Shown here piece by piece: positions 9,291 to 29,701 of a stretch of DNA of 64,000 nt. The position numbers and the translations under genes were made by a program. The notes beneath the pieces were generated by a model that did no database searches, was not told the origin of the DNA, and worked only from the letters and a program-made list of their open reading frames with translations. How positions within the stretch are numbered: position 1 is the stretch's first letter; each line of letters begins with the position of its first letter. Origin of the DNA: Lysinibacillus louembei (GTDB taxonomy: Bacteria; Bacillota; Bacilli; Bacillales_A; Planococcaceae); NCBI RefSeq assembly GCF_033880585.1, contig NZ_CP137624.1, positions 2,100,001 to 2,164,000 on the forward strand, written 5' to 3'.

Positions 9291-9957
9291 AGTGCAGTCT
9301 ATTTATAAGCGGTATCAGAAAAAAATTGTATTGGAAAATGTTTCATTGACGATTGGACAAGGTGAAATTGTAGGACTTGTTGGAGAAAATGGTGCGGGTA
9401 AATCAACATTGCTGCAAATGCTCGCTACATTAATGAAGCCAGATAAAGGTGAAATATATTGGCAAGGTATGGCATATCATCAGCAGCAAAAAGCGATTCG
9501 ACAAAAAATTGGCTTTGTGCCACAGGATTTAGCGATTTGGGAGCATTTTTCAGTTGAAGATAATATGCGTTATTTTGAACGTTTAAGCTGGAAACGAATT
9601 GGCATCTCAGCATGTCAGCAAATTTGTCAGGATATGCAGCTGACACAGTGGAAGGAGCCTGTTTCAAGCCTATCAGGTGGTATGAAGCGCAAATTAAATT
9701 TAGCGATTAGCTTAATTCATCAACCAGAGCTACTATTATTGGATGAGCCAACGGTTGGTATTGATATGCGCTCAAAGCAGGAAATAGGTCGCTTTTTACA
9801 GCAGCTTGCGAGGTCGCAAGGTACAACGATTATTTATACGTCACATGATATGAATGAAATTGAACAATTTACAGACCGTGTTTTGCTCATTGGCAAGGAT
9901 CGTTATTACGAGGAATTGCTTACGGCGAAAGGCATTCAAGTAGATTGCTTATCATAA
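9283..9957 (+). CDS. ABC transporter ATP-binding protein
   Basis: 224-residue ATPase that should power the two permeases upstream. Walker A is GENGAGKS (34-41), the signature is LSGGMKRKL (from 130), Walker B is LLLLDEP with D154/E155, and the H-loop is YTSHDM. The start codon lies within the last codons of the permease gene, indicating translational coupling. The C-terminus is short, so there is no extra regulatory domain. A strong bidirectional terminator follows directly. Confidence 0.93.
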   Translation: MLEVQSIYKRYQKKIVLENVSLTIGQGEIVGLVGENGAGKSTLLQMLATLMKPDKGEIYWQGMAYHQQQKAIRQKIGFVPQDLAIWEHFSVEDNMRYFERLSWKRIGISACQQICQDMQLTQWKEPVSSLSGGMKRKLNLAISLIHQPELLLLDEPTVGIDMRSKQEIGRFLQQLARSQGTTIIYTSHDMNEIEQFTDRVLLIGKDRYYEELLTAKGIQVDCLS

Positions 9958-9965
9958 AATGAAAG

Positions 9966-9995
9966 GTTGTCGGGAAGTATTTTCCCGACAACTTC
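9966..9995. terminator. Bidirectional terminator
   Basis: Perfect 11-base-pair stem (GTTGTCGGGAA / TTCCCGACAAC) with a 5-base loop, T-rich on the right and A-rich on the left. It ends the ABC operon and also lies at the 3' end of the minus-strand SDR remnant. Confidence 0.9.
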
Positions 9996-9997
9996 TT

Positions 9998-10249
9998 TTA
10001 TATTGCTGTATAGCCACCATCTACTAATAACGTTGCACCTGTCATAAATTTATTTTCACAAACGAATACACAAGCATGTGCGATTTCCTCTGGCTGACCT
10101 AAACGCCCGATTGGGTGGCGTGCCACTAAGCCATCATAAAAATCACCAAGTGCCTCTTTGTTGACCATGCCTGATTCTACATAGCCTGGGCAAATTGCAT
10201 TTGTACGAATATTACGCGAAGAATATTCAGCCGCAAGTGATTTTGTCAT
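9998..10249 (-). pseudogene. 3' remnant of a short-chain dehydrogenase/reductase gene
   Basis: The 83 codons match the C-terminal third of a classical SDR. NIRTNAICPGYVESGM follows the usual catalytic YxxxK helix, and GQPEEIAHACVFVCENKFMTG plus LLVDGGYTAI is the family's closing motif. The Rossmann fold, the NAD(P) site and the catalytic Ser/Tyr/Lys are missing, and an in-frame stop lies just upstream. This is a 5'-deleted relic and should not be enzymatically active. It is one of several deletion scars in the window. Confidence 0.85.
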
Positions 10250-10380
10250 AATAATAACTTCATTTTAGTTTATCGATTGCTATCTAACAATTTCTTTCAT
10301 TATACCACCTATGTGAAAGCGCTACCAATTGCATCTGCCTGCCATGTATTCTATACTTTTTCAAATAAGGGGGAATGGGT

Positions 10381-11139
10381 ATGTGTATTATTGCATTTGC
10401 TTATAAAATGCATCCACAACATGACTTGATTGTTATAGCAAATCGAGATGAATTTTATAAGCGACCGACGAAAGAGCTACATCAATGGGATGATGCGTTA
10501 CATATTTGGGCAGGGCGAGATTTAGAAAAAATGGGCACATGGCTTGCTGTTAGCGATAATGGGCGTTTTGCTGCTGTGACGAATTACCGCGACCCGCGTT
10601 TACCATTAGTTGGAGAGAAATCAAGAGGACAAGTGCCTGTCAACTTTATTAATAGCCAGCTTAGTGCTCATCAATTTGCGCAGCAATTACAGCAGGAACG
10701 ACAGTTGTACGGGGCATTTAATGCCATTTTGTATGATGGTGAGCATTTGGTGCATTACAATACGGTGCTAAATGAGCTAATGATTGTACCACAGGGCATT
10801 CATTGTGTATCAAATGCGACGCTTAATACAGCTTGGCCTAAGGTGGAGCGCTTAAAAGCTAACATGTGTGAAACAATTCAAACAACAACAGAGGAAGAAG
10901 CATTATTTGCATTATTAAAGGACACAATAAGGGCAGAGGATCAACATTTACCAGCAACAGGTGTATCTTTTGAAATGGAGCAAAAGCTTTCACCTATTTT
11001 TATTCATTTTGATGGCTATGGCACAAGAGCTTCTACTGTTGTAAAAAGCACAAGCAACGGTTGGGATATTGCAGAACGCAGTTTTACAGATGGGCAGTAC
11101 AGCAATGACGTGCGTTTTCTAATTGAGAAAGGGAGATAA
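10381..11139 (+). CDS. NRDE family (TANGO2-like) protein
   Basis: About 252 residues. It opens with MCIIAFAYKMHP and has the IANRDEFYKRPT block that names the NRDE family, followed by WAGRD, GTWLAVSDNGRFAAVTNYRDP and SRGQVP, all typical. Relatives include eukaryotic TANGO2; the biochemical role is not settled, and an Ntn-hydrolase-like fold with the cysteine next to Met has been proposed. The ATG at 10381 is preferred over 10375: it puts Cys at position 2 and gives a 7-base gap from AAGGGGG (10367-10373), against 1 base for the earlier codon. Its stop is three bases before the next gene's TTG, so it may be co-transcribed with the ATPase/TOPRIM pair. Confidence 0.85.
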   Translation: MCIIAFAYKMHPQHDLIVIANRDEFYKRPTKELHQWDDALHIWAGRDLEKMGTWLAVSDNGRFAAVTNYRDPRLPLVGEKSRGQVPVNFINSQLSAHQFAQQLQQERQLYGAFNAILYDGEHLVHYNTVLNELMIVPQGIHCVSNATLNTAWPKVERLKANMCETIQTTTEEEALFALLKDTIRAEDQHLPATGVSFEMEQKLSPIFIHFDGYGTRASTVVKSTSNGWDIAERSFTDGQYSNDVRFLIEKGR

Positions 11140-11141
11140 AT

Positions 11142-12449
11142 TTGGCAAAAATGATCAAGATTCAACGTGTAACAATTCGCCACTTAAAAAATGTCAAGCA
11201 CGGCTCTTTTCAAACGAATACAACACAAGAGAAAGCAAATGTTGTTGGCTTTTACGGGCAAAATGGTTCAGGGAAAACGGCTGTTGTAGAAGCTTTTCAT
11301 CTGTTGAAAATATTGCTACAAGCGAAAACGTTGCCTGATAACGAGCAAAGACTTATTTATTTTGAGGAAAAAAGCATTGAATTACACATTGAATTTTTTA
11401 TCATCAACCACTTTGGAGAATACTATGTGAAGTATTTCGTAGAGCTACAAGAAGGAATGAAAACATTAAAGGTTTGTCGTGAAGCTTTATTTTATAAAGA
11501 AAATAAGCGTGGTAAACGATATAAGGAGCTTGTAGCTAAAGATGGCAATGACATTTCCATTCGCAATAAAAAAATGCAATCATTTAGCGAAAGTCAGCGT
11601 GTGAATATAACGGTAGCTAATTATTTAGCAGAGGAAAATGCAACCTCCTTTATTTTTCGGAAAGAGCTTGTATTGTCTTACTCTGAGGAAGAAAAGGAGC
11701 TACTACAAAATTTAAGAGTTGATTTTAATAACGACTTCCATGTAATTGATACGATTCATTACGGCTTACTTGTTGCAAATCTTGTGATGCCACTTAGCAT
11801 TCATACGGATGGAATACGAGGAAATATTCCTTATGAATTAAGGGATACAATGCTCTTGCCAAGAGATATGTTTGCAACGATTGAAAAGGTCATTACGCAA
11901 ACAAATATTGTTTTAACAACGATTATCCCAGGGCTAGTAATTAAAGTTCGAGAAATACATCGAGAGAAAATGCCGAGCGGTGAAGATGGCGTGCGCTTTG
12001 AGTTTTTATCAGTAAAAGGTGAAATTGAGCTTCCTTTGCGCAGCGAATCACAAGGTGTATTAAAAATTATTTCCATTTTAAGCACATTGATTGCCGTTTA
12101 TAATAATCCGAATGCTTGTGTTGTTATTGATGAATTAGATGCTGGGATTTTTGAATATTTACTTGGCGAAATACTAGAGGTCATACATGACAATGGTAAA
12201 GGACAATTGTTTTTCACATCGCATAATTTGCGCATTTTAGAGGTGCTCCCTATGCAAAATTTATGGTTTACGACATTGAATGAGGAGGAGCGCTATTTAC
12301 AGCTAAAAGGTGTGAGAAAATTAAGCAATGCACGCGATGTCTATTTAAGGGCAATTCAACTTGGTGGACAGGAAGAGGCAATATACAACGAAACGAACCT
12401 ATATGATATTAAGAAATCGTTTAGGAAAGCAGGGAAAGTAATTGACTAA
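11142..12449 (+). CDS. AAA/ABC-type ATPase of a two-gene ATPase/TOPRIM-like system
   Basis: 435 residues. The N-terminus ITIRHLKN-like segment leads into Walker A GQNGSGKT (39-46), and late in the protein comes Walker B CVVIDELDAG (D330/E331), preceded by a SESQG signature-like stretch and followed by FFTSHN. This is the SMC/OLD-type head arrangement of the AAA_15/AAA_21 (COG1106-like) ATPases found in OLD, Gabija, PARIS and Rlo systems. The start is probably TTG at 11142 (GGGAG 6 bases upstream); an ATG at 11151 is the alternative. It overlaps the next gene by eight bases. A defence or DNA-repair function is inferred from architecture only. Confidence 0.8.
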   Translation: MAKMIKIQRVTIRHLKNVKHGSFQTNTTQEKANVVGFYGQNGSGKTAVVEAFHLLKILLQAKTLPDNEQRLIYFEEKSIELHIEFFIINHFGEYYVKYFVELQEGMKTLKVCREALFYKENKRGKRYKELVAKDGNDISIRNKKMQSFSESQRVNITVANYLAEENATSFIFRKELVLSYSEEEKELLQNLRVDFNNDFHVIDTIHYGLLVANLVMPLSIHTDGIRGNIPYELRDTMLLPRDMFATIEKVITQTNIVLTTIIPGLVIKVREIHREKMPSGEDGVRFEFLSVKGEIELPLRSESQGVLKIISILSTLIAVYNNPNACVVIDELDAGIFEYLLGEILEVIHDNGKGQLFFTSHNLRILEVLPMQNLWFTTLNEEERYLQLKGVRKLSNARDVYLRAIQLGGQEEAIYNETNLYDIKKSFRKAGKVID

Positions 12450-26763: not shown

Positions 26764-27460
<697 letters not shown>

Positions 27461-27605
27461 TAAATTCCTCCTCCCTATTATGTCGTTTAAATTAACTTAT
27501 TCGCATGATTTAACAAGGAGGCGGACAAAGAAACTATATTTGTTAAAAAGCTCTTCATAAAATAGATAACGATCGTATGTATAAAATAGGGAGGGGGGAT
27601 AATTA

Positions 27606-28189
27606 ATGGACATGACCAAAATAGAAAAAGGAAAGCCAGTCATACTATTGGATGAAGAGGGTCAGCCTTTAACTGTTATAGGCTTTTCGCCACATTGCCC
27701 ATTTATTTCGCATTTTTTTCACTTATAGCTGTTGCTGAAGACGGTCAGTGTGCCATATTTGAAATCCTTTTTCCATGTTGCTGTAAGAAAAAGCTAATTC
27801 ATACGAAACAAAAAATTATTGTGGATCTAGCTTGCTTTTGCTGTGTAACAATTTGCCAGCCAATTGATGATAACTACGTATGTCATACGACGATACGTGA
27901 GAAAATATGTACGACAATTTCGGGTAGCTCTGATAGAAGTCCAAAATTTATATGGCTAAATAATATGCCTGATGTAGAAAATGTAGTGACAGTGAATGTA
28001 TGTACAACGCAGCCCTTCACGATGAAAATTTATGAACAAGAAGGCATCTTTTCAACTATAGCGGTTGATGAAATATGTAAAGCGTTCACAATGCATAATA
28101 TTTTATTAATAGAAATTCAATCCCATGCTAATAGTACAGTGGAATTGACGATTACATGGAAGAAAATAAAGAACATTGAGCTTGCATAG
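27606..28189 (+). pseudogene. CotZ/ExsY-like spore lattice protein with appendage-like tail, frameshifted
   Basis: The frame from 27606 (strong GGGAGGGGGGA ribosome site) encodes KGKPVILLDEEGQPLTVIGF and reaches a stop at 27726 just after a run of seven T (27713-27719). Adding one T joins it to the frame that continues SLIAVAEDGQCAIFEILFPC and IIVDLACFCCVTICQ. This order (RPFILYTKTG, CAVLR, ITVDLSCFC blocks) matches the CotZ/CotY/ExsY exosporium proteins. The last 90 residues (FIWLNNMPDVENVVTVNV to VELTITWKK) go beyond ExsY and resemble the beta domain of Ena appendage subunits. It may be a true pseudogene, a phase-variable gene or a sequencing error. CATAAAATA at 27556 matches a SigK -10 box. 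Confidence 0.7.
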
Positions 28190-28221: not shown

Positions 28222-28230
28222 CATACAATA
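28222..28230 (+). promoter_or_regulatory. Possible sigma-K -10 element
   Basis: CATACAATA fits CATANNNTA, the mother-cell SigK -10 consensus, 32 bases before the Ena-like start. A similar CATAAAATA is at 27556-27564 before the CotZ/ExsY-like gene. Clear -35 boxes are not seen. Confidence 0.35.
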
Positions 28231-28261: not shown

Positions 28262-28597
28262 ATGGCGAAATTAGGAAGCTGTTGCGGTAATAAAACAAGT
28301 GTACACGACTCTGTCTGTCAAGATTTAACATTAGCTGATGAGACACCAGTAACAGTATGGGAAAATTCTACACCATTTGCGATTAACGGAACAATTTTAG
28401 TGGAAAATGCGAGCTCATCAACTGGCGATGTAACACTATCTGTAACAAGTAATCCCGCAACACCAGCAATTGCAGCAATTGCACCAGGTAATTCTGTATC
28501 AATAACTGCTAATAATATTACTGAAATTCAATTAGCAGGTACAGCTACTGGAGTAGCTAATGTGAAAATTTCTTATTCATTGAACTATAATTTCTAG
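28262..28597 (+). CDS. Endospore appendage (Ena/DUF3992-like) pilin
   Basis: 111 residues. The N-terminal connector has adjacent cysteines (SCCGNKTSVHDSVCQ: CC at about 7-8 and another C at about 19). This is the ZXnCCXmC pattern by which Ena subunits cross-link head to tail. The rest is a beta-rich jelly-roll-like sequence (VTVWENSTPFAINGTILVE, then IAAIAPGNSVSITANNITE) that fits DUF3992. Ena proteins form the extremely stable fibres on spores of the B. cereus group. Neighbours support this: a BclA-like collagen protein and a CotZ/ExsY-like protein, the same company as reported for the L-type Ena3A locus. Good ribosome site AAAGGAGGGG. Confidence 0.75.
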   Translation: MAKLGSCCGNKTSVHDSVCQDLTLADETPVTVWENSTPFAINGTILVENASSSTGDVTLSVTSNPATPAIAAIAPGNSVSITANNITEIQLAGTATGVANVKISYSLNYNF

Positions 28598-28645: not shown

Positions 28646-29701
28646 CTAGTTATCGCTGCTAAACAGCTGTTGAAAATACTGTTCATTATGCAATATTTGA
28701 GGATGCTGAGGAGAAAAGTTTTTTGCTTGCTTATGATGCTCGTAAGCAAGCGCATATTGTTGTAAACGATCGTAGAGTACACATAGCTGTAAATGAGGTA
28801 GCCATGTGGTAAAGGTCAAATTGCGAAATGCTGCATGTGTAGATTCTGTAATGGATAAAGCTTGCTTATACCAATAAATTGCCTGCTGATTTTTGTGCTG
28901 TTCCATAAAATAAAAGCCTAAACGACAGCATGCTTCAGGGCGTGGGGAATCAAATGTAAGGCTCCTCACAACAGCTCTAATAGCATTTGCTTCATTTTGT
29001 AATGCGTGATGACAATCCGCCAATTTAAAGCAAGCATGTATGCAGTCCTCAAGCCAGCCTTGCTCTGTTGCTAAAAATTTCTCATAGTAGTCAACAGCTT
29101 CCGCATATTTCGCATGATCTTTTAATTCATTGGCATAATAATAAAGGTCGCGTGGTGAAAATGCTTCGCCAGCTTCAAGTAATCGCTCATAAATCGCGAT
29201 ATTGCGCGCAGCATCATGGCTTAGTGGTCGATGACAAATTGCAATATCACTATTGATAATGGTACCATCTACCGCTAAGTATTCATGAACAGCACCGATC
29301 CATTGGAATTGACGTTGTCTTTTCACAAGACGATTTCGTCTCAAAGAATGAATAACTTTTTCTTGCTCATCGAAATCGAGATGATAATCCATTGATACAG
29401 CATCAACCGCAGTCGATAATGTTGATTTTAGCTGCTGTAATTTTGTTTGATTGTCAATTGTTAAGATATCATCTGCATCAAGCCATAAAATATAATCCTT
29501 TGTTGCTTGTTGAAAAGAGAAATTACGTGCAGCGGCAAAATGATGAATCCATGGAAAGTCGAAAATTCTTGAAGTATACTGAGCCGCAATGCTTTTTGTG
29601 GCATCCGTTGACCCAGTATCCACGATATTAATTTCATCCACAACCTGTTGAATAGAATCGAGACATCTGGTAAGTACTGCCTCTTCATTTTTTACAATCA
29701 T
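28646..29701 (-). CDS. Family 2 glycosyltransferase with TPR repeats
   Basis: 351 residues from the first ATG. MIVKNEEAVLTRCLDS and NIVDTGSTDAT give the GT-A nucleotide-binding fold, ILWLDADD is the DxD metal site, and the C-terminal half (about 190-345) consists of TPR-like helices. This layout is shared with SunS-type peptide glycosyltransferases and with enzymes near spore collagen proteins. Placed beside the collagen-like and Ena-like genes, it may glycosylate threonines of the GXT triplets, which is inference. The start is uncertain: conserved residues ITISLC lie in frame upstream of the first ATG, an in-frame TGA precedes them, and the AAAGGAG site (29732-29738) is 30 bases from the ATG. 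Initiation at an ATT around 29719 is possible. Confidence 0.85.
   Translation of the reverse strand: MIVKNEEAVLTRCLDSIQQVVDEINIVDTGSTDATKSIAAQYTSRIFDFPWIHHFAAARNFSFQQATKDYILWLDADDILTIDNQTKLQQLKSTLSTAVDAVSMDYHLDFDEQEKVIHSLRRNRLVKRQRQFQWIGAVHEYLAVDGTIINSDIAICHRPLSHDAARNIAIYERLLEAGEAFSPRDLYYYANELKDHAKYAEAVDYYEKFLATEQGWLEDCIHACFKLADCHHALQNEANAIRAVVRSLTFDSPRPEACCRLGFYFMEQHKNQQAIYWYKQALSITESTHAAFRNLTFTTWLPHLQLCVLYDRLQQYALAYEHHKQAKNFSPQHPQILHNEQYFQQLFSSDN

Follow-up and report, generated by a model that had tools for sequence, protein, structure and literature searches.

The genus Metasolibacillus carries an exsL-type gene that encodes one protein made of a CotZ-type and an Ena-type (DUF3992) domain, spread over two reading frames, and the break between the frames lies at the same place in every copy found. 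The fusion is real and it is of a known kind, ExsL; the frame break is what is new at this locus. We consider it rather likely that the gene encodes an ExsL-type anchor and that, since a one-base deletion was fixed before the species split, slippage on a run of seven T has supplied the full-length product. The gene was found in a window of 64,000 nucleotides, the whole stretch analysed here, from a genome of 3.96 Mb in a single contig that we assign to the genus Metasolibacillus.

The first reading frame of exsL (27606-27728, forward strand) starts with ATG at 27606 and encodes 40 amino acids, which comprise the CotZ-like N-terminal part MDMTKIEKGKPVILLDEEGQPLTVIGFSPHCPFISHFF followed by HL and the stop codon TAG (27726-27728); read in frame 0 up to the stop at 27728 it gives MDMTKIEKGKPVILLDEEGQPLTVIGFSPHCPFISHFFHL. 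The frame changes at the T run at 27713-27719, which is phased T_TTT_TTT in frame 0 and is identical in three species. The second reading frame (-1; 27719-28189, forward strand, 156 codons plus stop) encodes the remainder of the CotZ-like domain together with the Ena-like domain; its open stretch extends from 27695 to 28189. The composite protein would thus consist of 38 residues from frame 0 (27606-27719) and 156 residues from the -1 frame (27719-28186). The CotZ/ExsY-like domain (27639-27860), supported by a match to NF040827, by hhalign and by a profile search, runs across the frame break, and the Ena-type jelly-roll domain (DUF3992, PF13157; 27887-28186) was identified by Pfam and structure matches. 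A Shine-Dalgarno-like purine stretch, agggagggggg, is located ahead of the ATG (27589-27599). Motif resemblance points to a candidate sigma-K-like -10 element, CATAAAATA, at 27556-27564, with the motif CATANNNTA present 45-50 bases upstream of exsL in all three species and at the same place in the two others.

Directly downstream of exsL lies an ena gene (28262-28597, forward strand) that probably encodes the fibre subunit. Its product matches the Pfam family Enas (E 1.8e-21), and among solved structures it is nearest to Ena3A from L-type fibres (8pdz, E 1.6e-19 versus 2.8e-4 for Ena1B of S-type fibres, 7a02). The motif CATACAATA at 28222-28230, about 40 bases upstream of ena and at the same distance in two of the three species, might be a separate sigma-K-like -10 element for this gene. 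Upstream of exsL and divergent from it is a gene for a collagen-like protein with a C1q/BclA-like C-terminus (26764-27459, reverse strand), which could form a tip fibril. Its start codon is GTG in the window species and ATG in M. meyeri, and the number of its GXY repeats varies within the window species. On the other side, ena is adjoined by a gene for a family 2 glycosyltransferase with TPR (28646-29701, reverse strand), conserved in M. meyeri, whose product might glycosylate the collagen-like protein.

For the domain analysis no base was restored in the window gene; its pieces were searched separately, and the sequences folded were unbroken orthologues and the -1 frame of the window. The frame-0 piece matches model positions 13-48 of NF040827 (CotZ_rel) weakly (E 0.039) and the -1 piece matches positions 44-191 (E 1.1e-15), so that the pieces adjoin each other along a single family model. 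The bit scores for the two pieces are 57.7 for one and 13.4 for the other, and the genome search gave 63.4 bits; all of these values are below the cut-off of 90 bits, and we therefore treat the gene as a divergent, frame-broken ExsL-type relative that falls outside this model. The N-terminal domain of the unbroken orthologues aligns with Metasolibacillus CotZ (hhalign probability 94.9, E 4.4e-8), and the family profile finds the CotZ of its own genome with E 8.8e-9. This bears out the CotZ/ExsY-like N-terminus proposed in the first-pass annotation, and its second proposal, a C-terminal Ena domain of jelly-roll fold related to DUF3992, held as well. The C-terminal 100 amino acids of the window protein reach 17.6 bits against Pfam Enas (E 0.0039), below the cut-off of 22, which the G001 orthologue exceeds with 27.4 bits. 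A sequence search of the PDB with a six-row ExsL profile returned a weak match (8pdz, E 0.091), so folds were compared instead. AlphaFold models had a mean pLDDT of 81 for an unbroken orthologue and 76 for the -1 piece of the window, and for both the top five Foldseek matches in the PDB were all Ena structures, namely the Ena1C ring, the Ena2A fibre (two chains), the L-type fibre Ena3A and Ena1B. In the unbroken orthologue, the Ena-like half was closest in structure to Ena1C (9t3p, E 2.8e-7), the nonameric anchor ring of S-type appendages, which differs in having no CotZ domain (as described in PMC12921279). The lattice proteins CotZ, CotY and ExsY (PF10612) share the N-terminal domain but are without the Ena domain. 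At the break site, where a beta strand begins, the residues FF align with FF of the unbroken orthologues and of plain CotZ. The break is thus located inside one domain, and both parts are probably needed in a single chain.

The counterpart that the first-pass annotation had named, ExsL, proved well chosen. In the description of Bacillus paranthracis ExsL in PMC12921279, the protein has an N-terminal CotZ domain and a C-terminal DUF3992 domain and tethers L-ENA to the exosporium, and the gene is found, as in Metasolibacillus, beside an L-type ena and a collagen-like gene. Since both architecture and neighbourhood match, there is nothing new in the fusion as such. The two loci differ in gene order and orientation, with the collagen-like gene divergent upstream and exsL directly before ena in Metasolibacillus. 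They also differ in that the Metasolibacillus coding sequence is spread over two frames, something of which the published accounts of ExsL consulted give no hint. As stand-ins for ExsL of the B. cereus group, we used three members of NF040827 (L046-L048) in the comparisons, which are unbroken and of full length, pass the cut-off of that model and have ena directly or shortly downstream. A search for B. cereus-group ExsL among plasmids returned a single match, a Klebsiella record resembling contamination. In this record (CP079755.1, Klebsiella grimontii 'plasmid', 9342-11604) an ExsL-like gene is followed by ena, and the stretch is most likely contaminating sequence from a spore-former.

The genus was represented by five genomes, four of which are assemblies with the gene, from three species; they include Metasolibacillus sp. 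BHI2-bin.1, of the same species as the window, and M. meyeri WS4626 as a second species. The four genomes with exsL also have ena, and their exsL copies are all broken at the same T7; in all three species frame 0 ends in a stop no more than three codons after the T run. The first-pass annotation had treated the break as a slip to be mended by one added T. The break at 27713-27719 is real, recurring identically in three other assemblies, and being conserved across the genus it is not to be repaired. The fifth genome has neither exsL nor ena but has kept CotZ; a separate ordinary CotZ is present in all five. Unbroken orthologues, which the annotation had suggested looking for, exist and have retained the C-terminal Ena domain. 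The 11 relatives found outside Metasolibacillus all have a single open frame: five at full length (G143, G185, G186, G219 and G222), three more diverged (G245, G181 and G211) and three in other families of the class (G324, G273 and G390). Ena follows the unbroken exsL-type gene at loci L009, L011-L013, L025 and L046-L048, and collagen-like genes stand beside ena in L011-L013, L046 and L047. In the tree, the Metasolibacillus copies group together in a single clade, for which one origin of the break is enough. The retention of T7 is by itself weak evidence and, by this sequence comparison, not special, because 4 of 12 other A/T runs have likewise persisted in all three species and two unbroken orthologues also have T7 at the break site. 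A description of a conserved exsL frame break was not found in the literature consulted. Two further relatives were seen in the course of this search. The diverged ExsL-like protein of G211 (308 amino acids; L027, 1189-2115, reverse strand) seems to have a second Ena-like domain at its C-terminus, and elsewhere in the window genome there is a second small CotZ-like ORF of 130 amino acids beginning with PVVLLTKQGTPL (G000:C1:3164927-3165157, reverse strand; L007, 1456-1848), followed by an ORF of 156 amino acids.

Among the three species, dN/dS was 0.10-0.33 for the frame-0 part (38 codons) and 0.15-0.23 for the -1 part (156 codons), the latter at a dS of about 0.9-2.0. Neighbouring intact genes have values of 0.05-0.19 at similar dS, and the two halves of exsL are level with them or slightly above. 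Fisher tests gave p 1e-11 to 1e-16 for the C-terminal part and p 1e-5 to 1e-4 for the N-terminal part in two of the three species pairs, with p 0.06 in the closest pair for this short part. As judged from these codon comparisons, purifying selection acts on both halves. There are no stops in the -1 part, and frame-breaking indels are absent from either part; in a neutral simulation with 0.9 substitutions per site, the -1 part stayed free of stops in 0.2% of the runs. Together, purifying selection and the lack of further frame-breaking indels indicate that in every lineage the broken exsL is functional, or was so until very recently. The stem branch of the Metasolibacillus copies is long (1.32 changes per column), and a phase of relaxed selection on this branch is thus possible. 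Between the window and M. meyeri, the dS of the frame-0 part (27606-27719) is 0.25, low beside 0.93 for the -1 part; a hidden constraint at the RNA level near the start of exsL is possible. About 25 bases past the T run, the DNA at 27744-27772, GGTCA(A/G)TGTGCCATA(T/C)TTGAAATCCTTTT, is nearly invariant in the three species, and no stem accounts for it.

These data bear on several other explanations of the break. Homopolymers are prone to sequencing and assembly errors, but the same tract was read in four separate assemblies of three species, among them a metagenome bin at 174x and an isolate assembly at 64x, and an error is scarcely credible. That exsL was broken in the common ancestor and has been drifting away since would agree with the broken frame in every Metasolibacillus copy and with the long stem branch; both halves have been under strong purifying selection since the three species separated, with no added stops or frame-breaking indels, which makes such decay highly improbable. 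As far as sequences can tell, the same break in four assemblies of three species and the selection on both halves make an assembly error or a simple pseudogene very unlikely, and the cross-species comparison led us to reject both.

It might also be that the gene is split, with the 40-amino-acid peptide and a protein of 164 amino acids, started at an NTG codon at 27695 within the first frame, assembling together. The -1 frame is indeed open from this position, where the three species have TTG, ATG and CTG. The candidate start is therefore CTG in one species, a Shine-Dalgarno stretch at usable distance was not found, the residues between NTG and T7 are conserved in frame 0 and not in -1, and the cut would fall within a small beta domain, all of which renders a split gene improbable. 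In a different scenario the T run changes its length in the DNA by replication slippage, so that an in-frame subpopulation makes anchored appendages and the sequenced isolates are off. Short homopolymers in genes for surface structures are typical of phase-variable loci, according to PMC3711429, and such switching would fit the persistence of purifying selection on a gene that is broken in every genome seen. An identical tract length in all four independent assemblies and a run of seven bases, short for a fast switch, speak against it, and we regard phase variation as unlikely.

The explanation we favour is slippage on the T run in the expression of the gene. The one-base deletion at this run would have been fixed in the ancestor of Metasolibacillus before its species diverged. 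Since then, -1 ribosomal frameshifting on U_UUU_UUU could yield the full-length anchor, or RNA polymerase slippage could lengthen the T run in some of the transcripts and give the same protein, although T7 is short for the latter. T_TTT_TTT at 27713-27719 is a slippery heptamer (X_XXZ_ZZN) in the correct phase, and the frame transition is conserved with selection on either side of it, as expected of programmed -1 frameshifting. Downstream of T7, no stem that beats shuffled sequence is common to the three species, and 10-14 nucleotides upstream of it no purine stretch was found that could be a Shine-Dalgarno-like stimulator, so that a low rate of frameshifting is expected. For U_UUU_UUU, more than 0.10% of -1 frameshifting has been reported in E. 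coli without stimulators (PMC4066793). The majority of chains would terminate after about 40 residues. A low rate of slippage may nevertheless be enough, because far fewer copies of the anchor than of the fibre subunit would be needed, and it may serve as a throttle. According to PMC5009743, an indel in a homopolymer can be compensated by low-level frameshifting. The slippage-dependent genes treated there ('savior' indels, bacterial dnaX, Shigella spa13) likewise change frame at a shift-prone run and need the in-frame product; they differ from exsL in that slippage in exsL is predicted and no stimulator was found. An exosporium or appendage gene was not found among such examples in the literature consulted. 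Recoding in spore genes in general does have a precedent, a 'spore germination protein' cluster with a frameshift (PMC3711429).

In the anchor formed by slippage, the CotZ-like half would take its place in the outer spore layer, inserted in the CotZ/ExsY lattice. The Ena-like half would present an Ena-type domain as the base for the L-type fibre that the neighbouring gene encodes. The protein would thereby act as an adaptor between lattice and appendage. When the S-type anchor Ena1C was overexpressed in B. paranthracis, fibres became more numerous and shorter, as described in PMC12921279, and by analogy the number of anchors probably determines how many appendages a spore has. Tentatively, and with slightly less than even confidence, we suggest that slippage on T7, ribosomal or transcriptional, is a fixed dosage valve that provides few full-length CotZ-Ena anchors against an excess of fibre subunits and thus controls how many fibres each spore bears.

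With this locus, the range of ExsL-type anchors and their L-type ena reaches beyond the B. cereus group to Metasolibacillus (Caryophanaceae). It also indicates that genes in spore-coat loci that look like pseudogenes may be functional. With slippage as apparently the sole route to its anchor, the genus offers a natural test of anchor dose against fibre number. If true, the dosage valve would be a case of recoding in the assembly of the spore surface, born of a one-base deletion and then kept by selection.
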